Shown here: positions 11,992 to 41,009 of the stretch, in pieces
Layout of the letters: each line of letters begins with the position of its first letter
How positions within the stretch are numbered: the first letter of the stretch is position 1
DNA from: a virus
IMG/VR virus record: IMGVR_UViG_3300032240_002669
Location: 1-41,009 of that record
Length of the DNA stretch: 41,009 bases
Direction: 5' to 3' (one strand)
Notes under the pieces: model-generated
Databases searched by the model: none
What the model saw: only the letters and a program-made list of their open reading frames with translations
Told to the model about the DNA's origin: nothing
Translations under genes and position numbers: made by a program

Positions 11992-12339
11992 ATGGATGCA
12001 ATTAAATTTAAAACTCTAATTAAAGAAGCCGTTCGTGAAGCGGTTCGTGAAGAAATTGGAGTAATGTTATTAGAACAATTAAAAAGTGGTGTAACATCTC
12101 AACCACTTACTGAAGGTCGCTCATTATCATTCGATAGCGGGGATGTACATAGCGTTGGAATGAGATCACAAATGGGAAACAAAATGGCAGAAATGTTTGG
12201 AATGCCATCTGGAGCAAAACCTCAAACTCAGTTAAAAGTAGATCCAACAAGTGATAATCCATTCGCTGCATTTATTAATGATACTGCAGCTAATTTGAGC
12301 CCTCAGGAAATGAGACAAATTGTTCAAACCCAAGGTTAA
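11992..12339 (+). CDS. Small protein with capsid-targeting-like N-terminus
   Basis: A 115-aa protein starting MDAIKFKTLIKEAVREAVREEI, an amphipathic helix with the (I/L)xE site IKE before Ala, like the proteins encoded at 30726-41009. The rest is flexible, Gly/Ser/Met-rich, with a short helix at the end (SPQEMRQIV). It lies 3 nt before gp25. It could be a baseplate assembly factor or an internal head protein; the N-terminus argues for the latter, the neighbours for the former. Confidence 0.5.
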   Translation: MDAIKFKTLIKEAVREAVREEIGVMLLEQLKSGVTSQPLTEGRSLSFDSGDVHSVGMRSQMGNKMAEMFGMPSGAKPQTQLKVDPTSDNPFAAFINDTAANLSPQEMRQIVQTQG

Positions 12340-29220: not shown

Positions 29221-29925
29221 GTGAAGAATAACCAATTTACTATTGTAATTCCTTGTAAAAATGAAAGTATTAATATATACGATTGTTTAGGATTTATATG
29301 TAGACAAAAAGATATTACTGGAACTAGAATAATAATTGCAGATAATTCTGATGATCAAGAATCATTAGAATGGTTATATAAAGCAAAAATAGATTATAAG
29401 TATTCTCTTAATATAGAAATTATTAAAGGGGGGTATCCATCTAAAGCGCGTCTTGAAGGCTCGAAATTAGTTGATACCCCTTATATATTGTTTCTAGATG
29501 CTGATATAATGTTACTTGATAAGAATGTTTTAGATATTATATCTGATTTTAAAGGAGATTTATTAACTGTTCCTTTCCAAACTGAAAAAGGATGGAATTG
29601 GGTATTTAGATTATTTGATTTATTTCAAATATTAAGTATAAAATTAGGTACACCATTCGCCGTAGGTGGATTTCAATATTGGAATACTCAAAAATATTGG
29701 GAATTAGGTGGATATAAAGAAGATGAATTATTTGCTGAGGATTATTCTTTATCATCTAAAGTAAAACCAAATAAATTTTGGATTCATAAATCAGGAGGAG
29801 TATTTACATCTGCTAGACGATTTAAAAAGAAAGGAATTACTTATATGTTTTGGATTATGATTAAAAGTTATTTTAACCGAAATAATCCAGAATTTTTTAA
29901 ACATCATCACAATTATTGGAAATGA
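29221..29925 (+). CDS. Family 2 glycosyltransferase
   Basis: A 234-aa GT-A enzyme. FTIVIPCKNES is the nucleotide-binding start, IIIADNSDD the second strand, and LFLDADIMLLD holds the DxD motif (Asp93, Asp95) that binds the metal and sugar nucleotide. GGFQYWNT and EDYSLSSK complete the fold. A C-terminal amphipathic/hydrophobic helix (ITYMFWIMIKSYF) probably attaches it to the membrane. It starts at a GTG, the only plausible start here. It overlaps the metallophosphoesterase gene by 4 nt, so the two probably act together on an envelope glycolipid or on phage DNA or protein glycosylation. Confidence 0.75.
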   Translation: MKNNQFTIVIPCKNESINIYDCLGFICRQKDITGTRIIIADNSDDQESLEWLYKAKIDYKYSLNIEIIKGGYPSKARLEGSKLVDTPYILFLDADIMLLDKNVLDIISDFKGDLLTVPFQTEKGWNWVFRLFDLFQILSIKLGTPFAVGGFQYWNTQKYWELGGYKEDELFAEDYSLSSKVKPNKFWIHKSGGVFTSARRFKKKGITYMFWIMIKSYFNRNNPEFFKHHHNYWK

Positions 29926-30662
29926 AATACCAAGCAATTATAGTTTCAGATTTACATTTAGGGACCAAAGATTCAAAAGCTGAAGAATTTATTGAATTTT
30001 TAGAAAAACATCCTACAAATCTTTTAATTTTAAATGGAGACATTATTGATGGTTGGGCTATTAATAGAGGAGCTAAATGGAAAAAACAACATACAAAAGT
30101 TATTTCCAAATTATTAAAATTATCTAATAAAACCCAGATAATCTGGATTAGAGGAAACCATGACGAATTTATACAAGAATTTATTGGAATGCACTTCGGC
30201 GGCATTGAAATTAGAGAAGATTACGTTTTCAATACAAAAGTTTGGGTTGAAAATGATGTCTATAGGAATGAAAGCTATTATATTTTCCACGGAGATGTTG
30301 TGGATGTTTTTATAACCAAATATAAATGGTTAGCTAAAATAGGAGCTGTGGGATATGACTTTGCATTATGGTTAAATAGAGTTTACAACAATTATCGTAA
30401 ATGGAGAAAATTACCATATCAGTCAATATCTCAAAAAATTAAAGGTGGTGTTAAAGCAGCTACTAATTATATCAACGATTTTGAAACTACAGCACTATCC
30501 ATGGCTCATAAAAAAGGATGCAATGGAGTTATGTGTGGTCATATCCATCAACCAGAAGACAGGTTAATTAATGGTAAACGTTATATTAATAGTGGTGATT
30601 GGGTAGAAAATATGAGTGCTATATTGGTTGATAACAATGGCGTTATAACTTTACATAAGTAA
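29922..30662 (+). CDS. LpxH-like metallophosphoesterase
   Basis: A 246-aa calcineurin-type phosphoesterase. Metal-binding motifs are in order: SDLHLG (Asp10, His12), NGDIID (Asp40), RGNHDE (Asn79, His80), FHGD (His123) and GHIH (His207, His209). The insert and length resemble UDP-2,3-diacylglucosamine hydrolases (LpxH) and their relatives. I chose the ATG at 29922, which overlaps the glycosyltransferase stop (ATGA), over a TTG at 29916. Co-translation with a glycosyltransferase suggests phage-directed change of lipid A or another surface glycolipid; the substrate is not proven. Confidence 0.75.
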   Translation: MKYQAIIVSDLHLGTKDSKAEEFIEFLEKHPTNLLILNGDIIDGWAINRGAKWKKQHTKVISKLLKLSNKTQIIWIRGNHDEFIQEFIGMHFGGIEIREDYVFNTKVWVENDVYRNESYYIFHGDVVDVFITKYKWLAKIGAVGYDFALWLNRVYNNYRKWRKLPYQSISQKIKGGVKAATNYINDFETTALSMAHKKGCNGVMCGHIHQPEDRLINGKRYINSGDWVENMSAILVDNNGVITLHK

Positions 30663-30679
30663 GTAATAAATTAATATTT

Positions 30680-30710
30680 ATAGGTGGCTTGGCTCGTCCA
30701 GGTCACCTAT
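30680..30710 (+). terminator. Hairpin abutting a late-type promoter
   Basis: ATAGGTGGCTTGG (30680-30692), loop CTCGT, CCAGGTCACCTAT (30698-30710): thirteen pairs with two G-T. No T run follows; TATATTTAC begins 2 bases later. Confidence 0.65.
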
Positions 30711-30725: not shown

Positions 30726-31685
30726 ATGATCAAACTGATTGACATAGCTAAATTAATTGTTGAAGGTGGTAATGTATTTGATGCTACATCACCAATCGAC
30801 AAGGCTAATATTGAACCTACATTAGAAAAATTCATAGACGAATTGTCACGTATTTTTCCTAAAAAGAAAGATACATTTAAAGCATTTGAAAGATTAGGGT
30901 CAGTTGGCAAGAAAAATGTATCAGGAGATATTGATTTATCATATAATGAACATCATTTATATAATAAAAATTTACCTGATTTTAAAGGTTGGGGAGTGGA
31001 TGAAGGTAAATATAATGAATTATTTCAATTATTTACTAAGCGCTCTAGAGTTTCAACACCAGCTCAAATATCATTACGAGCTATGGTTGAATTAATATCA
31101 ACTAAATTAGATGAAAACTCTAGTGAAATAGAAGTTGATACTAAATCATCAGGTAAAGGTACAATATTTTGTAGTGCACCTCAATACAATCCTCAAGGTC
31201 AAAAATTAAATAAAAATGTTCAAATTGACATTAATATTGGAGACCCAGATTGGTTAAGATTTAGTTATCACTCAGCTATGTATCAAGATAATGTTAAAGG
31301 TTTACATCGTACTCAATTAATATTATGTTTATTTTCTCTTAAAGGTAGGATATTCAATCACGCTATAGGTGTTATTAATAAAGAAACAAGAGAAAATGAA
31401 GCTAAAAATCCAACTGAAGCTGCAGCATTGTTGAATAGATTATTTGGATTTGAAATTACTCCTGAAATATTAGACGATTACCATAAGTTAATTGGTTTTT
31501 TAAAGAGTAATTTGAGTGAGGAAGATTATAATAAATTAATTGATAAATTTTTAAGAATACTAGACTTAACTAGAGCTGATATTCCTGATGGATTACAACA
31601 ATATTGGATTGATAACCAAGATAGATTGCAACTAACAGGCAAATATCTCCCAGATAATTCAAGATTATTACAATATAAGAAATGA
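30726..31685 (+). CDS. Polymerase-beta-type nucleotidyltransferase with capsid-targeting-like start
   Basis: A 319-aa protein. Residues 1-13 (MIKLIDIAKLIVE) form an amphipathic helix ending in IVE before Gly, like a T4 capsid-targeting peptide. The enzyme core has RLGSVGKKNVSGDIDLSY with Gly58-Ser59 and Asp68/Asp70, and the third acidic residue in VQIDINIG (Asp168). This is the active-site pattern of the nucleotidyltransferase superfamily (transfer of NMP to RNA, protein or small molecules). The C-terminal half is helical, as in many members. I chose the ATG at 30726; an upstream in-frame start would run through the hairpin. It overlaps the kinase gene by 4 nt. Confidence 0.65.
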   Translation: MIKLIDIAKLIVEGGNVFDATSPIDKANIEPTLEKFIDELSRIFPKKKDTFKAFERLGSVGKKNVSGDIDLSYNEHHLYNKNLPDFKGWGVDEGKYNELFQLFTKRSRVSTPAQISLRAMVELISTKLDENSSEIEVDTKSSGKGTIFCSAPQYNPQGQKLNKNVQIDINIGDPDWLRFSYHSAMYQDNVKGLHRTQLILCLFSLKGRIFNHAIGVINKETRENEAKNPTEAAALLNRLFGFEITPEILDDYHKLIGFLKSNLSEEDYNKLIDKFLRILDLTRADIPDGLQQYWIDNQDRLQLTGKYLPDNSRLLQYKK

Positions 31686-32518
31686 TTAAATTATTAGACA
31701 TATTAAAAGAGGCTATGGCACCTAAAGATAAAATGATTATCATGGCTGGAGCTGCAGGTTCAGGTAAATCAACTTTAATTAATAAAATTAAAGGATCAAC
31801 TCCTGGATTTGAAATTATTAATCCAGACAAATATGTTGAGGATAAGAATAGTCCTATGTATAACAATTTGATGCAATCATCAATGCAAGTAGATGATAAA
31901 GATGTACCTGCTGCTTTAGCTGCTCATCAATCATTTATTTGGGATACAACTGCAGCAAATGCTGCTAAGTTATTTGGTGGTTTGTATAGACGTAAAGAAG
32001 TACCAGGATTATTAAATCAACATCCAGATTATGATGTAATGATGATCATGGTTTATGCCCATCCTATTGTTTCATTTTTAAGAAACTTTAAACGTGAGCG
32101 TAAAGTACCAAAAATAGCTGTATTATCAACTTGGAACTCAGTATATGGAAATATAGATACGTATAAAGCCAAATTAGGCGATAATTTTATTATGTATCAA
32201 GCTCCTGATGAAGAATATGCAAAAGAAATTAATGAGTTTAATTCGGCCGTTAAAACAGGAAAATTATATGATTGGTTAAATGATTTAACATTGCAAGATA
32301 AAGATTCATTTAAATCAACATTAGGTAATAAATCAACAGAACCATTATCACCTGAAGAACAAGCTAAAAAAGATAAGGCTAATGAAAAACAGGTTGAATT
32401 ATATAAACAGCAAGTAGAACAGTTAGAACGTGAATTTGATAGTATTAATAATAAAATCAAAAATTACGTTTTACCTGAACAAGAAATTATAAATAAAGTA
32501 AAATCCTTCGTACAATAA
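31682..32518 (+). CDS. Zeta-toxin-like P-loop kinase with capsid-targeting-like start
   Basis: A 278-aa protein. MIKLLDILKE at 1-10 is the cluster-type start, with LKE before Ala. The Walker A motif GAAGSGKST lies at 23-31, IINPDKY at 45-51 supplies the zeta-type Asp, WDTT at 87-90 the next strand motif, and HPIVSFLRNFKRERKVP (127-143) the Arg-rich lid. These are the features of zeta/PezT-type kinases, which phosphorylate UDP-sugars or other small molecules. The last 70 residues are a coiled coil. If injected with the DNA it could act on the host at once. It is coupled to both neighbours by 1-4 nt overlaps. Confidence 0.65.
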   Translation: MIKLLDILKEAMAPKDKMIIMAGAAGSGKSTLINKIKGSTPGFEIINPDKYVEDKNSPMYNNLMQSSMQVDDKDVPAALAAHQSFIWDTTAANAAKLFGGLYRRKEVPGLLNQHPDYDVMMIMVYAHPIVSFLRNFKRERKVPKIAVLSTWNSVYGNIDTYKAKLGDNFIMYQAPDEEYAKEINEFNSAVKTGKLYDWLNDLTLQDKDSFKSTLGNKSTEPLSPEEQAKKDKANEKQVELYKQQVEQLEREFDSINNKIKNYVLPEQEIINKVKSFVQ

Positions 32519-33912
32519 TGAATTTAGGTCAATATATAGCACAACAATTATTAGAAAATGATCAATATACTATTGGTGTATTTCCTGGTGCTTTCAAACC
32601 ACCTCATAAAGGACATTTTAATGTTGTTAAGAGATTAGCAGACATGTGTGATGAGGTTCAAATTTTAATTTCACCTAAAACTCGTGATGGAATTACTGTA
32701 GAAGAAAGTGTTGCTGTATGGGAATTGTATAAAACTTTACTACCGGGAAATGTTAATTATTTAGTTGCAGAAGAAAACCCAGTTAAAGAAACATACAGCT
32801 TAATTACATCCAACCCAGAAGCAAAAATTATTGCTGCATTTGGTAAAGATGAATTTACTCGTTTTAATTCTATCTTATCAAATGAAAAATATAAGAATGC
32901 AGAATTATTTAATGCAGGGAATTTTGATGGAATTAGTGCCACTGATTTTCGTACTGCTATTAGAGCAAAAAATGAGCAATTAATTAAAACTTTCTTGCCT
33001 GAAGGTATTGATGTTAAACAATTCATGGATGCTGCTGGTTATACAATGGGCGACACCGAAAAAGAAGAGTTAAAAGAAGGTAAAGTGAATTTGGATTTAT
33101 TAAAGAAATTCATTAGCTTCACAATACGTGAATTGGGAATTGAGGGGGGAGGGGGAAAGATCGTGATAAGCGGCGATACGGCGAAAGCGAGGGAAATGAA
33201 GTCAATGGGGTTATATACTCCACAAGACGATAAGATATGGGTTTATACCGGTAATCGTAACATGGCTGATATATGTCGAACTGTTTCTCACGAATTAGTA
33301 CACTTATCTCAAAAACAAAAAGGACAAACTTTAGACGGCACAACAGGATCAGATACTGAAAATGAAGCTAATTCTAAAGCAGGTCAAATAATGAGAAAAT
33401 TCGCTCAAATGAATCCTATGATATTCGAAGCACAAACACCAACACCACAATTTAAAATATATTGCGATATGGATGGTGTTCTTGTTGACTTTGAAAAAGG
33501 ATACGAAGAATTAACTGGTAAAAATATTAGAGGAAATCACGTTAAAGGTGATAGTAGTTTTTGGCAACCAATAGCAGATGCAGGTGAAGCGTTTTGGACT
33601 GGATTGACTTGGATGAAAGATGGAATGCAATTATGGGAATATATTAAACAATACTCTCCTAAATTACTTTCAGCACCTTCACGAGACCAATCATCCAGAA
33701 CCGGAAAACAAAAATGGGTAGACGAAAATATACCAGGCACTCCATTATTACTTAAATCAGCAGAATTAAAACAATTATACGCATCTCCTAAATCAATATT
33801 AATTGATGATAGAGCAGATAATATTAAACGATGGAAAGAAGCAGGTGGTATTGGGATATTACATACTTCAACTATTGATACAATCAATCAATTAAAAGAA
33901 TTAGGTTTATGA
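32518..33912 (+). CDS. Three-domain fusion: nucleotidylyltransferase, metallopeptidase, HAD phosphatase
   Basis: A 464-aa protein with three enzyme-like domains. (1) Residues 15-180 are a cytidylyltransferase-type Rossmann domain, with GAFKPPHKGH (HxGH, His30/His33) and ISATDFR (139-145). (2) About 190-300 are a zinc metallopeptidase, with HELVH at 258-262 and a likely third ligand in TENEANSKAG. (3) About 312-464 are a HAD phosphatase like the 5'(3')-deoxyribonucleotidases, with DMDGVLVDF (Asp317, Asp319) and ILIDDRADNIKRW. The N-terminus MNLGQYIAQQLLE is capsid-targeting-like. ELKE before Gly188 and MIFE before Ala305 are (I/L)xE sites at both domain borders. A GC-rich patch lies at 33135-33210. 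It may be a polyprotein cut during head maturation. Confidence 0.7.
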   Translation: MNLGQYIAQQLLENDQYTIGVFPGAFKPPHKGHFNVVKRLADMCDEVQILISPKTRDGITVEESVAVWELYKTLLPGNVNYLVAEENPVKETYSLITSNPEAKIIAAFGKDEFTRFNSILSNEKYKNAELFNAGNFDGISATDFRTAIRAKNEQLIKTFLPEGIDVKQFMDAAGYTMGDTEKEELKEGKVNLDLLKKFISFTIRELGIEGGGGKIVISGDTAKAREMKSMGLYTPQDDKIWVYTGNRNMADICRTVSHELVHLSQKQKGQTLDGTTGSDTENEANSKAGQIMRKFAQMNPMIFEAQTPTPQFKIYCDMDGVLVDFEKGYEELTGKNIRGNHVKGDSSFWQPIADAGEAFWTGLTWMKDGMQLWEYIKQYSPKLLSAPSRDQSSRTGKQKWVDENIPGTPLLLKSAELKQLYASPKSILIDDRADNIKRWKEAGGIGILHTSTIDTINQLKELGL

Positions 33913-34490
33913 TGAATGAAAGTGTTTTGAAAAAAGAGTTTCGAGAAAAGGATGTACAGCGAGTAAGAAATATAGTAAATAAAAAATACGGAGATAAAAT
34001 CTCAACTCAAGTAGGTTATACTAAGGAAAATATCGATCATAAAGAAGGTGATATTTGGGAAGAAAATGGTAAAAATTGGACCATTAAGAATGGTATTAAA
34101 ATGACCATATCCAAATTAGACTTAGTTAAAAAAGCCCTACAAATCCCACTTACATGCCCTAAATGTGGTAAAGCAATGAAGAAAAAAGTATTGGATACTA
34201 AAATGTATGCAATACATAAAGAATGCTTTGACTGTGTTATTGTAAGAGAAACTAAATTGCGTTTAGAAGGTAAATATGAAGCATATGTACAAGATATGGT
34301 TCAACGCAACGCTAAAGGATTTATTGGAGATCTTGAACAAATATTACAAGATTTAATTAACGATGTACACCCAGACCAAATTGTTACTGAAAACGGTGAA
34401 ATGGAGCAATGGTCTGGTGGTGATAACACGGGTCTAATCAAGGAATTTCAAGAATATATCGAAAAGGTAAAGAATATAACCCAGTCCTAA
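33909..34490 (+). CDS. Zinc-ribbon protein of T4-like phages
   Basis: A 193-aa protein. Residues 1-25 (KKEFREKDVQRVRNIV) form a basic helix. CPKCGKAM at about 79-86 and HKECFDCV at about 98-105 form a probable zinc ribbon. The rest is helical and acidic. I recall similar starts in hypothetical proteins of T4-like phages but know no function. The start is either the ATG at 33909 or the one at 33912. The gene sits within the capsid-targeting cluster but lacks such a peptide. Confidence 0.55.
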   Translation: MMNESVLKKEFREKDVQRVRNIVNKKYGDKISTQVGYTKENIDHKEGDIWEENGKNWTIKNGIKMTISKLDLVKKALQIPLTCPKCGKAMKKKVLDTKMYAIHKECFDCVIVRETKLRLEGKYEAYVQDMVQRNAKGFIGDLEQILQDLINDVHPDQIVTENGEMEQWSGGDNTGLIKEFQEYIEKVKNITQS

Positions 34491-34530
34491 TATTTATTGC
34501 TATCAATAACTAAATATATAGGTAGATATA

Positions 34531-34809
34531 ATGGACAATCTTTATTCAGTAATAATAACAGCCATAACAGTTTTAGGAGGTACCACAGCGTTTCGTTACT
34601 ACGAAAAACGAGCTATGCACAAAGAAAGAGATGAAGACTTCATCCGCCACGACTGCAAAGACAGAATTATTAAATTAGAAGCTTTACTAGAAAAATCATC
34701 CCAAGAAAAAGATGAAATGCGCCAACAAATTTTAGATTTAGTTGCTGAGGTAGCTTCATTAAGAACTGAAATCAAGTATTTAACTGATAAACGCATTGGA
34801 AGTATATGA
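34531..34809 (+). CDS. Membrane-anchored coiled-coil protein
   Basis: A 92-aa protein with one N-terminal membrane segment (about 5-20) followed by a long charged coiled coil (about 45-87). This layout is shared by phage inner-membrane spanins and some holin-associated proteins, but nothing is decisive. It lacks the capsid-targeting-like start of its neighbours. It overlaps the next start by 4 nt (ATGA). Confidence 0.5.
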   Translation: MDNLYSVIITAITVLGGTTAFRYYEKRAMHKERDEDFIRHDCKDRIIKLEALLEKSSQEKDEMRQQILDLVAEVASLRTEIKYLTDKRIGSI

Positions 34810-35204
34810 TAAAATTAACAGAATTAATCACAGAAGAGATTGATGAGTATGATGTTGAAAATGAACAAGATTTAAAAGAATTTGTTCAATTTATAAAAGA
34901 GTATACTCAAATGATAAATGAGGCTGATTGCTCATGTATTACCGAAGCTGAATATCACGGTCATAAAGTGCAGCTAGGTAAAATAATGCAGGGTGATATT
35001 AAGAAATTTAAAGTATACGTTAAAAATAATAAAGGTAAAGTTGTAAAAGTTAATTTTGGATTTGGTGGCAAATCAGCTCATGGTAAGAGAATGAATATCA
35101 AAGTTAAAAATCCAAAAAGACGAGCAGCATACCGAGCAAGACATAACTGTGATAACCCAGGACCACGTTGGAAAGCTAATTATTGGTCTTGTAGAAAGTG
35201 GTAA
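34806..35204 (+). CDS. Capsid-targeting-like protein with ARHNCDNPGP domain
   Basis: A 132-aa protein. MIKLTELITEEI at 1-12 is the cluster-type start (ITE site), and further (I/L)xE sites lie at INE before Ala and ITE before AEYHGHK, just ahead of the C-terminal domain. That domain (about 49-132: GHKVQLGKIMQGDIKKFKVY, KVVKVNFG, RARHNCDNPGPRWKANYWSC) is a conserved phage domain I recall from head-related phage proteins. Its Cys residues may bind metal. The site placement suggests that the domain is freed by the maturation protease; this is inference. Confidence 0.6.
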   Translation: MIKLTELITEEIDEYDVENEQDLKEFVQFIKEYTQMINEADCSCITEAEYHGHKVQLGKIMQGDIKKFKVYVKNNKGKVVKVNFGFGGKSAHGKRMNIKVKNPKRRAAYRARHNCDNPGPRWKANYWSCRKW

Positions 35205-35205
35205 T

Positions 35206-35724
35206 ATGATAAAGTTAACAGAAATATTACAAGATATAATAGCTGAAAGTAAACTTTGTAAAAAAGGTAGAGCTTATTATAATCGTCGCAGAGCTGCTGG
35301 TGAAAAACCATCAGCTTATCTTTCTGGCCGTGCTGTTAAAGTATGTAAGGGATTAATGGAGGGTGATGATGAAACTATTGAATGTGAAAAGTGTGGATGG
35401 AGATGGAAATTAGAAGATGGGGGAAAAGATCCATATACTTGTCATAAATGTGGATACGATAATTCCAATGTATATAATTCAATGGAAGAATCACTTCACG
35501 ATTGGTTTGCAAAAGAAGATTGGGTTCGTATTGATACAGCAGGTAATATAACAGGTCCTTGCGGTACAATGAAAAAGGGACATAAGACAACTCGTTGTTT
35601 ACCTCGTGCTAAAGCAAATAGTTTAACTAAAGCTGAACGCGCTGCTACATCAAAGAAAAAAGTAGCATCAGATAAACAATTTGTACCTAATACTAAAAAA
35701 GCAAAAGTAAAGTTTAATAAGTAA
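35206..35724 (+). CDS. Capsid-targeting-like zinc-ribbon protein
   Basis: A 172-aa basic protein. MIKLTEILQDIIAE at 1-14 ends in IAE before Ser. Next are KLCKKGRAYYNRRRAAGEKP, then a zinc ribbon with CEKCGW and CHKCGY, and a basic C-terminal domain (HDWFAKEDWVRIDTAGN, GPCGTMKKGHKTTRCLPRAK, LTKAERAAT) that I recall as a recurring phage/bacterial domain (I think DUF6321, not checked). The ATG at 35206 is preferred over an upstream in-frame start inside the previous gene, since it restores the common N-terminus. It probably binds nucleic acid in the head. Confidence 0.6.
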   Translation: MIKLTEILQDIIAESKLCKKGRAYYNRRRAAGEKPSAYLSGRAVKVCKGLMEGDDETIECEKCGWRWKLEDGGKDPYTCHKCGYDNSNVYNSMEESLHDWFAKEDWVRIDTAGNITGPCGTMKKGHKTTRCLPRAKANSLTKAERAATSKKKVASDKQFVPNTKKAKVKFNK

Positions 35725-38363
35725 TGAGAGCAATTGATAAATTTATAATTCACGTAACACACAATTTATTTCCACTTAATGAGTATTCAGAAGGTGAGAT
35801 TAATAAATTAATGGCTAAATTTAAAGAAGAAGCTGATGATTTAAATATTGAGATTGCTGATGATAAATTAAAAGCATATATTGAACGTTTTGATTCTTTA
35901 AAAAATTCTCCTAAAGTAACTGAAAAAGATTTACGTAAGTATTCTTTATCAAAATTAATTAAATTAGTTACTTCATCTAAAGGAGTTGCTGAGCCTGAAG
36001 AGGCAGCCGATATAACACCAGATGTAGTTTACGAACAAAATGGTTTAATTATATATAATGGTTCTAAAGAGGAAAACTGTTTAAATTTTGGTAGAGGTGA
36101 ATCTTGGTGTATTACTAGAGGTTCATTTGGTAACTATCGTTATGATGATAATAGAAAGAACCCAACATTTTATTTAGTAAAAGATACAAATTTACCTAAC
36201 AGCGACCGTAAAAGTTTCTTTGTAGTTGTTGTTGGTAGTGATAATACTTACAAAGCATCAGATAGATCAAATAATGATGTTGGTGGTAGAGCTACAGAAT
36301 GGGATAGATGGGAACCATGGAGTTTTATTGAACAAAATTTCCCATCAGTTACTGGTTTAAGAAGTGTATTCAAATATATTCCTTTATCTTCTAAAGAAAA
36401 ATTAAACCAATCTTATAAAAATAAACCTACAACATATAGAGAATGGGCTAAATTACCATTTGATGTTAAAGAACAATATCTAGTTGTTAGAAAAGGTAGA
36501 CAATTGTTTAATGATATTACTAATGATCAATTTATAGAAAAACATCTATCTAAATTCCCTCAAATAGCATCAACAATTGCTACTAATGCTGGTATTATTG
36601 ATAGTGCTACATTAGCTAAAAATTTAGAAAAATTTTCAAATCAAGATGTTAAATCAATCATAGCAAATATGAGAGATAAAATTTCTTTAGAATATTTGTC
36701 TACTGAAGCTATTACATTCGAGGTTAAAAAATTCTTAGTTAAATTTGATAAATTCCAATCATCAAAATCAGTAAGATTATATGTTACTAAAGATGGAGAA
36801 GGAATTGTTAAATTAACATTAGATGGTAACGATATTAATATAGGATTATATACTGAAGAAGATGATTATCCTAATATTAAATTAAATAAACGTACATCAA
36901 AATATCTTTTAGAATACCCAGACTTAGATAAGATTCCATTTAAAACATTAGTTTCATTATCTAATGAAGGCACAATTGATAAGAGTGTTATTGGTAATGT
37001 ATTGGAAAAAGCAAAAACAGATTCTAATTCTGCTTTAGTTGTTAAGGAAACAGAAGGTGGAAATTTAATAATTTTAGACTCAAATACATTCTCTTCATAT
37101 AAAATGGATAATGAAGGTAAAGTTACTTCTTTACCATTTGGTGATGAAGAAGTACAAAAAGTATTTGCTGGTCAAAGTAATAATGAAGGATTCCAACAAA
37201 ACGCCCTTACATTAATTAACCCAAATGATCCTATACCTCAAACAGTAGATAAAGATTCTTTTGTTTCTATATTGAAATCAATTCCATTAAATAAAAGAAT
37301 AGTAAATTGGAGAGGAACTAATAGTGTAATTTTAATACCTGAAAATAGTAGTGAAACTGCTTTCTTTATTATGGCTACTAATAGAGGATTAAATAATTTA
37401 ACAATAGATGCTTTAGCTAGAGATAATAACTGGAGAAAACCAAATGAAAGAACTACAACAACTGACCCACAAGTTTATGCAGCATATTATGCTTATTTAA
37501 GAAGCACATCTACTGCCTATTCAGATGAACAGTTTATTGGTAGTTTAAGAAATACATCTGCATATGGTAATACAGGTTATCAAATTAGAAAAGCAGCTAT
37601 TGCTGCAAATCCGCCACTACAAGCTGGTAACATTTATAGACCAGTTATAGCCGAAGATGGAAAACCTTATATAATTAATACTCAAAATTCAAGATTAAGT
37701 TTTACAATATCTGATTCAACAGGTAAATTATTAAAAGCAAATTTATCAAGTAGTCAAGCAGCTAGAATATTAGGAGTTGCTCCAGCAGCAGGCCAAGCAT
37801 CAGTTGCAACTACAGGTAGAAGAGGAAGACCAGCAGGTGTAACAAACGCTCCTCGTCAACCACAAGCCGCTACTCCAGTAGCAGCAGGTGATATTAATGT
37901 TGCAGAGGAAATGAGTCAAATTGGTTTAGATATAGCATATTCTCGTTTACCTAGATCTATATTTAGAAGATTAAATGTTAATAATGCTTCTCGTGTTGCT
38001 CCGGATGGTGATAGAGGTGCTGCTCGTCGTAATAATATTTTAGGTACAGCAGGTAGAGTAGGTAGAGTTATTTCTATTGGTGCTAGTAAAATTTACATTA
38101 TTAGATTAGCTAATCAACAAGTAATAGCATCTATTAATGTACAACCAGGTAATAGTAACTACATATTAACAGGTAATGCTAATGGTAATAATGCAATATC
38201 ATTAAATTCACCATCAGATTTATTGAATGCGTTGCAACAACGTGGTTTGGCAGAGGCACATCAGTACATTATGAATGAATACCTAGATGCAAATCCAGGA
38301 CATATAAAAGAATTTAAAGAATTACTTCGTAAACATATAAACGAAAAAAAGAATGCAAGTTAG
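35724..38363 (+). CDS. Large multidomain protein with one AT-hook
   Basis: An 879-aa protein. The start MRAIDKFIIHVTHNLFPLNE is helix-like, with LNE. Residues about 95-200 hold LNFGRGESWCITRG and FYLVKD, a motif set that I recall from hypothetical proteins of large phages. The middle (200-620) is mixed and unrecognised. An AT-hook (GRRGRPAG) lies at about 697-704 in a Pro/Ala-rich linker. A beta domain follows, and LAE before Ala occurs near the C-terminus. It may be a DNA-associated internal protein. It overlaps the upstream stop by one base and the next gene by 11 nt. Confidence 0.55.
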   Translation: MRAIDKFIIHVTHNLFPLNEYSEGEINKLMAKFKEEADDLNIEIADDKLKAYIERFDSLKNSPKVTEKDLRKYSLSKLIKLVTSSKGVAEPEEAADITPDVVYEQNGLIIYNGSKEENCLNFGRGESWCITRGSFGNYRYDDNRKNPTFYLVKDTNLPNSDRKSFFVVVVGSDNTYKASDRSNNDVGGRATEWDRWEPWSFIEQNFPSVTGLRSVFKYIPLSSKEKLNQSYKNKPTTYREWAKLPFDVKEQYLVVRKGRQLFNDITNDQFIEKHLSKFPQIASTIATNAGIIDSATLAKNLEKFSNQDVKSIIANMRDKISLEYLSTEAITFEVKKFLVKFDKFQSSKSVRLYVTKDGEGIVKLTLDGNDINIGLYTEEDDYPNIKLNKRTSKYLLEYPDLDKIPFKTLVSLSNEGTIDKSVIGNVLEKAKTDSNSALVVKETEGGNLIILDSNTFSSYKMDNEGKVTSLPFGDEEVQKVFAGQSNNEGFQQNALTLINPNDPIPQTVDKDSFVSILKSIPLNKRIVNWRGTNSVILIPENSSETAFFIMATNRGLNNLTIDALARDNNWRKPNERTTTTDPQVYAAYYAYLRSTSTAYSDEQFIGSLRNTSAYGNTGYQIRKAAIAANPPLQAGNIYRPVIAEDGKPYIINTQNSRLSFTISDSTGKLLKANLSSSQAARILGVAPAAGQASVATTGRRGRPAGVTNAPRQPQAATPVAAGDINVAEEMSQIGLDIAYSRLPRSIFRRLNVNNASRVAPDGDRGAARRNNILGTAGRVGRVISIGASKIYIIRLANQQVIASINVQPGNSNYILTGNANGNNAISLNSPSDLLNALQQRGLAEAHQYIMNEYLDANPGHIKEFKELLRKHINEKKNAS

Positions 38364-38598
38364 TCAATTAAAACAAGCTATACGCGAAATTATAGAAAAA
38401 GTAATGGCTGAAGGCCCGGCAACAGCTCCTTCAAAACCAAATACTGAACCAGCAGTACACCCTGGAAAACCAGGTACTGATAAACCTAAACCTCGTCGTC
38501 CATTAGGAAATCCTGATGTTAAACCAAAACCAAAAGCATCAATGAACGAAGAAGAAATGTTGGATAAAATTGTTAAAAGATTTCAATCTAAGAAATAA
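38353..38598 (+). CDS. Small internal-protein-like gene
   Basis: An 81-aa protein. MQVSQLKQAIREIIEKVMAE is an amphipathic helix with IRE, IIE and MAE; the last precedes Gly. A Pro/Lys-rich disordered middle (about 22-62) and a short C-terminal helix follow. After cleavage a small basic peptide would remain, as for T4 internal peptides. It overlaps both neighbours (11 nt and 1 nt). Confidence 0.55.
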   Translation: MQVSQLKQAIREIIEKVMAEGPATAPSKPNTEPAVHPGKPGTDKPKPRRPLGNPDVKPKPKASMNEEEMLDKIVKRFQSKK

Positions 38599-39620
38599 TG
38601 GCTAAATCTAAATTATTAGAAGTAGATTACGAAAAAATATTTTCACCACAAACAATGGCTGCCTTAAAAGGTAAGTCTGGTGAATCATTGCGTCAAATGG
38701 TTGGTAATAAACCTTTAATGCAAACAATGTTGCGTTCTAAAGAAGTATTAGACCAAATTATTGCTGCTGAAGAAGGATATCGTGATGAATTAGAAATGGT
38801 AGCTACACAAATGGTTACTGATGCTTATCCTATTATTGACTATGCTAATATTAAAATTATTGCTAGTATAGGTAATGATATGGATATCGAAATGAATCCT
38901 AATAATGAAGATCCTACAACACCTGATTTTGGTGAAGATGATCCTGAAAAGATGAAGGCAAAACGTCTCCTTATTAATGGTATTACTCAAGGTGCTTCTG
39001 TTAGAGGTGCTTTTGGTTTTATGCTATTTAGAGAATACCTAGATCAAATCAACCCAGAATTAGTAGGTAAATACAATGAAATATTAAAATTAGTATTTGG
39101 TATTTACGATGATGAAAATGCTATTGCAATGATGTTAGCGGCTATTTCGCAAGGACAAAAAATGCAAGGTGGTGAAAGTGAAATGGAATACGATGATGAA
39201 AATGGTCAATTTATAATTAAAGCACAAGCAATGTGTTTTCCTATGTTAGTGCATGAAATTGTAAAAGGATTATATGAAATTATAGGTACAGAAGGATTTG
39301 GATCAGATAAAGAAAAAAATCAAGCTATTGTTAATGCTGTAGATAAGGTTTCAAATGAACCTGAAGATTTACGTTATGGTAAATTCATATATGATGCTAT
39401 TAATAAAATATATGCTTCATCTGATGTAGAAGATCCACGTGTTCGTGAATTGTTCTTTGCATCTGTTTATAAATTACCTGATGAGGAATTTTTCCCATTT
39501 GTTGAAAATGCTGTTAATGATTCTTTAACACCATCCCAAGTACGTTGGTCTAATAATGAAATGAATGATATTGCTCGCGATTTAACAAAAGATGATACAG
39601 GATTAGAAGATTTAGATTAA
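38598..39620 (+). CDS. Acidic helical protein of unknown function
   Basis: A 340-aa acidic, mostly helical protein with no membrane segment. It begins MAKSKLLEVDYEKIF, with LLE but without a clear targeting helix. Met and Asp/Glu are frequent (DPTTPDFGEDDPEKMKAKR). It is not recognised. The acid-rich helical character and its place among head-related genes would suit a scaffold or core protein, but this is only a guess. A candidate late promoter follows at 39629. Confidence 0.55.
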   Translation: MAKSKLLEVDYEKIFSPQTMAALKGKSGESLRQMVGNKPLMQTMLRSKEVLDQIIAAEEGYRDELEMVATQMVTDAYPIIDYANIKIIASIGNDMDIEMNPNNEDPTTPDFGEDDPEKMKAKRLLINGITQGASVRGAFGFMLFREYLDQINPELVGKYNEILKLVFGIYDDENAIAMMLAAISQGQKMQGGESEMEYDDENGQFIIKAQAMCFPMLVHEIVKGLYEIIGTEGFGSDKEKNQAIVNAVDKVSNEPEDLRYGKFIYDAINKIYASSDVEDPRVRELFFASVYKLPDEEFFPFVENAVNDSLTPSQVRWSNNEMNDIARDLTKDDTGLEDLD

Positions 39621-39628
39621 AATTTTAC

Positions 39629-39637
39629 ATATTTATA
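39629..39637 (+). promoter_or_regulatory. Candidate late promoter box
   Basis: ATATTTATA (in ACATATTTATATATA), 14 nt before the ATG at 39652, with no TTTG at -33. It matches the box at 9107, 15241 and 21156. Confidence 0.45.
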
Positions 39638-39651
39638 TATAAACACATACA

Positions 39652-40143
39652 ATGAATACTACAGTATTACGTCAGATTATTAAAGAAGCTATTGTTGATC
39701 GTTTAAAAATGATTGATGAAGCAGGCGATAAAGCAGCAATTAACGCAAAAATTGCTAAAATTGAAGAAGATATCAAAGAAGCACATGATATCAAAAATGC
39801 AATCCCTACAAACATTAACCACTATGTTGATCCAGAAATCATCAGTGATTTAATGGATGATATGAATAACAGCATTGATGAATTAGAAGCTAAGAAAAAA
39901 GAACTTCAAGATCAATTAACATCAATGGATAAACCAGTTAAAGAAGCTAAGAAAAAACCATCTGCAGGTATGACTAAAAAAGAAAAATCTGCAGTAGCTA
40001 AAAAAGCACATGCTGGTGGCGACATAGGTAAAAAAGGTAAAGGATTTGAAAAAGTAGAAAAAGCAGCAGAAAAAGAATATGGTTCTAAAGAAGCTGGACA
40101 AAAAGTAGCAGCAGCTGCAATGTGGAAATCACAAGCAAAATAA
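39652..40143 (+). CDS. Capsid-targeting-like protein with a recurring phage C-terminal domain
   Basis: A 163-aa protein. [12 protein letters not shown] before Ala is the cluster-type start. Residues 25-95 form a coiled coil. The Lys/Ala-rich C-terminal domain (about 105-160: [44 protein letters not shown]) is a recurring small domain in phage internal and scaffold proteins. Basic charge suggests DNA contact within the head. It is led by a candidate late promoter. Confidence 0.6.
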
Positions 40144-40150
40144 TAAAATA

Positions 40151-40513
40151 ATGGGCCAAGTAGAAAGAATGAAAAAATTAGCTGGTTTAATTAATGAAGC
40201 TTTAGATGCTGTTGGGCGTGAAGATGCCGATATTAATAATGATGGTAAAGTAGATAAAACAGATAAATACTTAAAACATCGTCGTGATGTTGTAGCTAAA
40301 AATCTTGGTGAAAATGAAGATCATGAAGCATCAATGGCTAAAGCTGAATTACGTGACATGTTAATGAACGGAGCTAAAATTTATCAACTAATACAACCAG
40401 GAGATGAATTACCAGGTTGGGTATCATCTTACATAACATTGGCTTCTGACTATATTCATAGTATTAAAGAATATATGGTTGAACAAGAAGCTGAAACAAT
40501 AGAAAATGGATAA
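40151..40513 (+). CDS. Capsid-targeting-like protein with an EF-hand-like loop
   Basis: A 120-aa protein. [10 protein letters not shown] before Ala (from the second Met at residue 7) is the targeting-like helix; the true start could be 40151 or 40169. [12 protein letters not shown] at 27-38 has Asp/Asn at positions 1, 3 and 5, Gly at 6 and Asp at 9 and 12, an EF-hand/dockerin-type calcium loop. The C-terminal helical region ([34 protein letters not shown]) is a domain I recall from phage head-related proteins. It overlaps the next gene by 8 nt. Confidence 0.6.
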
Positions 40514-41009
40514 AAGAATATTATTAGAAAAATATATTAAAAAAGCAATTAAACAAAAATTGCAAGAGGAAGAGCAAGCTATTAAGCGTGCTGAAAAATC
40601 TCTATACTTAATATATCGTTTCCCTAAACTAAAAGATGCTGTTGAATCAGTAATGTCTCCTTCATTTAGTAGATATTTAAGTAGTGTTACTGTTATTGCT
40701 CCAAAACCAACAACATTTAATGTTGAATTAATTAATGGTTTAGATTTTCAATTAGTATATTCAAGTGGTGGCAAAACAGGTGGTAATTTTATTGCTAAAG
40801 TAGCAGGCAAAAAATATGATTTATCTATGGGTAGTGGAGTAAATAGAGCAAGCTCAGCAGTAGCAAATTTATTATCATTATCTCCAGCTCTTAAAGAAGA
40901 TGTTAACGCCGCTGCTCCAGCAGACGCAACTGCCGCTGCTCCAGAAGCACCAGCTCCTGATGCAGGTGAAGCAGCATTTAATGACTTAGCAGGTGCAGGT
41001 ACACCTCCA
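40506..41009 (+). CDS. Capsid-targeting-like protein, cut by the window end
   Basis: The ATG at 40506 overlaps the preceding stop by 8 nt, and 168 codons stay open to the window end, so the C-terminus is missing. The start [19 protein letters not shown] is a basic amphipathic helix with LLE, like its neighbours. Residues about 30-120 look like a small alpha/beta domain, followed by an Ala/Pro-rich linker ([17 protein letters not shown]). Function unknown. Confidence 0.5.

Follow-up and report, generated by a model that had tools for sequence, protein, structure and literature searches.

Shared N-terminal tags on unrelated proteins of T4-related phages as predicted prohead-targeting propeptides

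The N-terminal peptides shared by a set of unrelated proteins in a phage genome fragment are, with high confidence, prohead-targeting propeptides working like the capsid-targeting sequence (CTS) of T4; the packaging, cleavage, and injection of these proteins are predicted from sequence. We further think it reasonably probable that the peptides belong to an open modular cargo code in T4-related, probably Bacteroidota-infecting phages, in which dozens of unrelated proteins carry interchangeable tags, one of them copying the C-terminal docking peptide of the scaffold, with cargo in scaffold places and a single cut after Glu.

In the mechanism that we propose, the tag, a short amphipathic helix, would first dock its protein in the prohead core, and cargo bearing a scaffold-tail-like tag would sit at the docking site of the scaffold tail on the capsid shell or core. 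A gp21-type S77 serine protease would then cut after (I/L)xE, as the tag boundaries strongly suggest; the freed body would stay in the head with the DNA and, by analogy to T4 IPI and Alt, would probably be injected at infection and act in the host. Since the tag would be a head address label cut by a phage protease, enzymes can probably be loaded and delivered to the next bacterium.

The window, meaning the whole stretch of DNA analyzed, is a complete 41,009-base IMG/VR record but a fragment that stops short of its own head genes, and a near-identity search of it against phage records returned no match. Two longer relatives, G002 (160,926 bp) and G004 (171,171 bp), are both near-complete; because G004 has a 127-bp direct repeat at its ends, it is probably a closed genome (its IMG/VR class is linear). 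The nearest cultured phages are the Flavobacterium phages vB_FspM_immuto (major capsid protein 58% identical). The group is large and T4-like, with a recognizable gp20 portal, gp17 terminase, gp21 protease, and gp23 capsid gene, and its hosts are probably Bacteroidota. Both immuto and G004 encode a GroEL, immuto also a GroES, and both carry 7-deazaguanine synthesis genes, with a DNA guanine transglycosylase in immuto, so that modified DNA is likely. The host on record of Microcystis phage Mel-JY01 (L036) is cyanobacterial, while its capsid protein, scaffold tail, and protease are nearest the flavobacterial group, and this host record may deserve a check. At window positions 29221-30662 lie glycosyltransferase-like and metallophosphoesterase-like genes that are found in G002 and not at the same spot in G004, an accessory insertion that adjoins the nucleotidyltransferase described below.

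The first-pass annotation had listed at least eight products whose N-terminal peptide ends in (I/L)xE, and all eight are present at their assigned starts in the window sequence. They lie between positions 30726 and 40513, and their N-terminal peptides are 10 to 20 residues long and end in (I/L/M)xE. The features are as follows (arrows mark predicted cut sites).

30726..30764, plus strand: tag MIKLIDIAKLIVE of the nucleotidyltransferase; predicted cut IVE↓G.
30765..31685, plus strand: nucleotidyltransferase body, Pol-beta superfamily (GS...GDIDL, D168), from a fold match and invariant Asp.
31682..31711, plus strand: tag MIKLLDILKE of the P-loop kinase; predicted cut LKE↓A.
31712..32518, plus strand: P-loop kinase body, zeta/AAA_33-like, from Pfam Zeta_toxin and Foldseek.
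32518..32556, plus strand: tag MNLGQYIAQQLLE of the three-domain fusion; predicted cut LLE↓N.
32569..33000 (right end approximate), plus strand: NMN/pantetheine-phosphate-type adenylyltransferase domain, from TIGR00125 and PDB PPAT.
33070..33440, plus strand: probable zinc metallopeptidase domain (HELVH, residues 258-262), from sequence and a weak DUF6782 match.
33448..33909, plus strand: 5'(3')-deoxyribonucleotidase (HAD) domain, from phrog_2643 (E=1e-27).
34806..34835, plus strand: tag MIKLTELITE; predicted cut ITE↓E; the G004 counterpart (137626) begins MIKLSDLIEE.
35206..35247, plus strand: tag MIKLTEILQDIIAE; predicted cut IAE↓S; matches the T4 rule given below.
38353..38412, plus strand: tag MQVSQLKQAIREIIEKVMAE; predicted cuts IRE↓I and MAE↓G.
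39652..39687, plus strand: tag of the 39652 product; predicted cut IKE↓A, with a second site, IDE↓A, at residue 23.
40151..40198, plus strand: scaffold-tail-like tag of the 40151 product; predicted cut INE↓A.
40506..40571, plus strand: weak, doubtful tag of the 40506 product, conserved in G004.

The open reading frame list places the start of the 30726 gene at a GTG at 30684, but L038, the nearest relative (89% identical), shares the MIKL start. The N-terminus at 38353 reads MQVSQLKQAIRE↓IIEKVMAE↓G, with ...AIRE↓A...VLAE↓N in G004 and ...VLAE↓G in G002. The 39652 tag is kept in both of these relatives, and in other phages the same protein continues into a second tag. Two further products had been put forward as weaker candidates. 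We agree for 40506, whose only sites are LLE↓K and LQE↓E, and find no convincing site at 35724. The window tags are mostly of the MIKL class, and there are at least three tag classes overall. The MIKL class may resemble the capsid protein N-terminus (MEIQQLLES), and another class the scaffold N-terminus. A baseplate-region protein (window 11992-12339) begins MDAIKFKTLIKEAVREAVREE, a tag-like helix preserved in all relatives; it could be a tagged protein encoded away from the head block or else a false positive.

We regard modularity as the decisive evidence for the T4 interpretation, since the tags behave as separable modules, with a boundary exactly at the (I/L)xE↓ bond, that are gained or lost, swapped, and reused on unrelated bodies. 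In viral contigs, a degenerate DNA pattern for MQKLAGIITE matched 117 stretches, whereas 257 Gb of sequence from bacterial and archaeal genomes gave no match. Most of the 90 MQKLAGIITE frames read have the Glu 16 to 23 residues from the start, and 81 bodies fell into 45 clusters at E≤1e-3, some of which deeper profiles could merge. MIKLIDLLxE was found in at least 120 viral stretches, which brings the two tags together to over 230, and on 34 body clusters; in 79 of 81 frames its Met is the first in-frame ATG. The tagged bodies of relatives include P-loop kinases, a nucleotidase, an HD-domain protein, a hydrolase, and an ART-PolyVal ADP-ribosyltransferase that scored over the Pfam cut-off; a Pfam search of 44 bodies with the scaffold-like tag found no recurrent family. 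The 40151 body (54 to 55% identity with G004 and G002) shows a swap exactly at the Glu, since its orthologues bear tags of a different class, MIKLTHLVE↓G in the G004 protein and MIRLSNLVE↓G in the G002 protein. Some fusions keep the Glu while P3 is not Ile or Leu. The bodies at 40151-40513 and in immuto gp079 contain an EF-hand/dockerin-like stretch, and their (A/G)LD start always comes right after the Glu, fusions included.

Tag copies also occur inside proteins, where they divide a first tagged part from a second or form the end of the protein. Since T4 gp21 and Alt undergo C-terminal processing (PMC9026906), these internal and C-terminal copies recall the processing of those two proteins. 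Proteins with two tags, one N-terminal and the other internal or C-terminal (G002 114417, G022 104390, L070, L078, L097, L105, L115, and L138), are possibly polyproteins cut into two cargo proteins.

Presence and absence of the tag are clearest in the nucleotidyltransferase, whose body starts GGNVF in all 26 relatives. Sixteen of these have an N-terminal extension of 13 to 18 residues, with at least four different sequences, each ending in (I/L)xE, and the other 10 begin with Met directly followed by GGNVF, with an in-frame stop upstream; their tree requires two changes of tag state. A further relative, located via its tag, reads MIKLIDLLREALIIE↓GGNVF. The orthologue in immuto, gp089, is untagged, and cut sites are predicted in that phage for gp076, gp077, gp079, gp080, gp082, gp083, and gp087. 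The AlphaFold2 model of the window protein has a pLDDT of <50 for residues 1 to 15 and >90 from about residue 20, most of the body lying above 90. Foldseek matched it to Pol beta/mu/lambda in the PDB with a probability of 1.00 at a TM score of only 0.3 to 0.37, and the GS and D-x-D motifs and third Asp (D68, D70, and D168) are invariant. The earlier nucleotidyltransferase call thus stands as a Pol-beta type by fold, at the superfamily level only.

The tag of the kinase is conserved as well, with M1, L4, L8, and E10 invariant in seven relatives, down to 53% identity; relatives of this kinase are few in viral contigs. It had been described as zeta-like. A P-loop kinase is upheld at the superfamily level, whereas for a specifically zeta identity there are a Pfam Zeta_toxin match (26.4 bits; cut-off, 22.3) that covers the P-loop half only and Foldseek matches to small-molecule/tRNA P-loop kinases, zeta toxin among them, none of which is specific. 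In the three-domain fusion, the tag residues are conserved and Glu13 is invariant in seven relatives, and the adenylyltransferase domain begins only at residue 17 to 19 (TIGR00125 over cut-off for residues 19 to 53; PDB PPAT from residue 17). The HELVH domain has a weak match, below cut-off, to the putative metallopeptidase DUF6782, and immuto gp088 has an equivalent HExxH stretch. The proposed composition of adenylyltransferase, probable HExxH metallopeptidase, and 5'(3')-deoxyribonucleotidase holds at the superfamily level. In relatives the nucleotidase domain also forms a separate tagged protein, with LLLE↓ES in immuto gp087 and MIKLIDLLNE↓I in L389 and other contigs. A NadR identity for the fusion was considered and rejected, TIGR01526 scoring 22 bits against a cut-off of 341, while only a general adenylyltransferase domain model reaches its cut-off; because of this and of the generic kinase fold, where a nicotinamide riboside kinase had been sought, we dropped an NAD-repair explanation. 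The N-terminally untagged immuto gp088 (L028 17132-19855) joins the modules of the window in another way: besides an adenylyltransferase and a pair of HExxH-like stretches, it has a second nucleotidyltransferase-like part.

These bodies bear on a rather unlikely alternative, namely, that the proteins with tags serve in the prohead core or in morphogenesis and would be targeted and cut, then consumed or expelled before maturity, with little injected. In T4, gp21 degrades gp67, gp68, and gp22 once they have been targeted (PMC9958956, PMC9026906), and the small Lys/Ala/Glu-rich products of 38353 and 39652 look more core-like than enzyme-like. However, a role in a core is not obvious for a nucleotidyltransferase, a kinase, an adenylyltransferase, a nucleotidase, or an ADP-ribosyltransferase, and the bodies differ freely among phages.

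One tag class points to how such cargo might dock. The scaffold gene sits between the protease and capsid genes, the position of T4 gp22, and its product ends in R[MFW][QKR]x[LI]A[GNF] in all 79 viral contigs read and in R-x-[QKR]-x-[LI]-A-[GNF], or a close variant of it, in eight phages that include RM378 (RIKRLAGL) and Mel-JY01 (RMKKLAGIVK). Only 12 residues are invariant over the whole scaffold, and three of them lie within the last 11. This peptide recurs as the core R-M-Q-x-L-A-G-I/L of one tag class (R-M-Q-x-L-A-G-I/L-x-x-E), and position 4 is variable in both; in the window this class is represented only by the 40151 tag, which contains RMKKLAG. T4 and cyanophage scaffolds were not seen to have this C-terminal tail. 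Because the tag copies the extreme C-terminus of the scaffold, RMQKLAG-class cargo would be expected to occupy the docking site of the scaffold tail, and the likeness suggests that tag and tail bind the same partner. Less plausibly, both could simply be short amphipathic helices with no common docking site, a reading under which head targeting would still stand. Covariation of the tag with its own scaffold tail within phages is weak (P=0.04), the other tag classes do not show so clear a resemblance (only the RMQKLAG class does), and the T4 CTS is unlike gp22. Against this, tag and tail agree at seven to eight residues, share the L-A, and are variable at the same position 4, and among all open reading frames of the sampled genomes only scaffolds and one of 82 amino acids end in this way.

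The head genes of the phage lie outside the window, so that its protease is predicted from those of relatives. A gp21-type protease was sought in G002 and G004, and both encode a Peptidase_S77 protein (E ~1e-32, over the curated cut-off) about 15 kb beyond the gene that matches the right end of the window, in the same gene neighborhood; the conserved His/Ser/Asp of T4 gp21 are aligned in the relatives' proteins. Of 38 contigs with a scaffold-like tag or a relative of the nucleotidyltransferase, 23 encode S77, among them every one of the nine that reach 97 kb, and S77 was found in 8 of the 12 contigs of at least 100 kb with a MIKL tag; the four in which none was seen are incomplete or diverged. 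The S77 frame at G037:C1:50206-50733 contains one in-frame TAG, and this phage may thus recode a stop codon. The site at which T4 gp23 is matured, FLTE↓A after residue 65, aligns with VVE↓S, VSE↓A, ISE↓A, and LME↓T in the capsid proteins of relatives, such that the Glu is kept and P3 is Val in G004 and immuto and Ile/Leu in Mel-JY01/RM378. Together, S77 in the relatives and separable tags with their boundary at (I/L)xE↓ support the capsid-targeting reading offered by the first-pass annotation. Amphipathic N-terminal helices can also bind membranes, and a similar peptide occurs on the baseplate-region protein at 11992, so that the N-termini could serve another destination, such as membrane or tail, with (I/L)xE incidental; we consider this very improbable given the Glu exactly conserved at tag boundaries, the co-occurrence of S77, and the similarity to the scaffold.

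Finally, we scored N-termini with a rule taken from the T4 literature and not fitted to these phages, (I/L)xE with the Glu at residue 8 to 24, followed by A/G/S/T/N, and no Pro. It matched 6 of 13 open reading frames of at least 60 amino acids from 30.7 kb on versus 2 of 44 in the rest of the window (P=0.001, Fisher test). As a positive control, it found 4 of 8 scorable known T4 substrates (gp24, gp22, IPII, and IPIII) at a background of 13/245, and it is therefore specific but only half-sensitive. In viral contigs, 22% of the 879 distinct open reading frames lying no more than 10 kb from a scaffold gene matched at the N-terminus, compared with 4 to 5% at offsets of 60 to 100 (P<1e-23); by protein family, the counts were 24/156 at the N-terminus and 2/116 at offset 60 (P=5.5e-5; other offsets, P=2e-4 to 0.009). 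Matches were nearly absent from the portal (0/50), terminase (1/40), and PhoH (0/30) families. At P3 of the N-terminal Glu, Leu is enriched 3.2-fold and Ile 1.95-fold, and amphipathicity, mild for single peptides, is significant jointly (Stouffer z=3.3). In scan statistics on seven relatives, matches were concentrated in one 30-gene stretch in G004, G002, and immuto (P≤4e-4 each) and in G022 (P=0.015), while clustering was not significant in G010, G039, and G040; clustering beside head genes consequently fails as a universal rule in three of the seven. Chance, whereby a Lys/Glu/Ile-rich proteome often yields (I/L)xE and about 1 to 7% of internal protein stretches in these phages match, is refuted by both enrichment tests and by unrelated bodies carrying the same tags.

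If the prohead-targeting interpretation is true, an N-terminus by itself would mark a virion-carried protein, giving testable functions to scores of hypothetical phage proteins, and the tags would be a natural route for loading enzymes into phage heads. Copying of the scaffold tail is a proposed docking mechanism for prohead cargo, for which the T4 work gives core association only. Flavobacterium phage immuto, a relative in culture, would allow every step to be tested.

The tagged ADP-ribosyltransferase of relatives has a parallel in Alt, the ADP-ribosyltransferase that T4 packages. The CTS of IPI, IPII, IPIII, and Alt, together with gp21, shares with the system described here an N-terminus of about 10 residues, a cut after (L/I)xE, an S77 protease, and the use of one propeptide on unrelated bodies (PMC9026906). 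IPIII MKTYQEFIAE and MIKLLDILKE of the window have the same length, hydrophobic positions 4, 7, and 8, and Glu10. Unlike in T4, the tags have other sequences, fall into at least three classes, sit on a far larger set of bodies, and also occur internally and C-terminally, and one class copies the scaffold C-terminus. In engineered P22 scaffold fusions, scaffold sequence carries cargo in; that loading is engineered, whereas here a natural short copy of the scaffold tail stands mostly at the cargo N-terminus and is predicted to be cut off later. In phage P1, N-terminal residues of DarB suffice to load a reporter into the head (PMC9024508); P1 differs in that its Dar proteins have no reported shared consensus and it has no identified separate scaffold. 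The ejection proteins of SPN3US and phiKZ, with the proteases gp245 and gp175, are similar in that many head proteins are cut after Glu and ejected (PMC10052503, PMC9026906), but their motif is AxE or S/AxE rather than (I/L)xE and their protease belongs to the giant-phage family S80 (PMC5694885). Polyvalent proteins are effectors reported as probably delivered with DNA (PMC5512222), and the ART-PolyVal domain is among the tagged bodies here; polyvalent proteins are large and multidomain, in contrast to the mostly small single proteins with one tag found here. A review anticipated the T4 principle for varied cargo (PMC9026906), and searches of open-licence literature for the tag core and for combined terms on such phages found no match, nor did virion proteomics turn up for any member of the group. 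The principle is already known from T4, and what is new is how widespread and modular the tags are, that they can be present, absent, or exchanged at the cut site, and that one class copies the tail of the scaffold.
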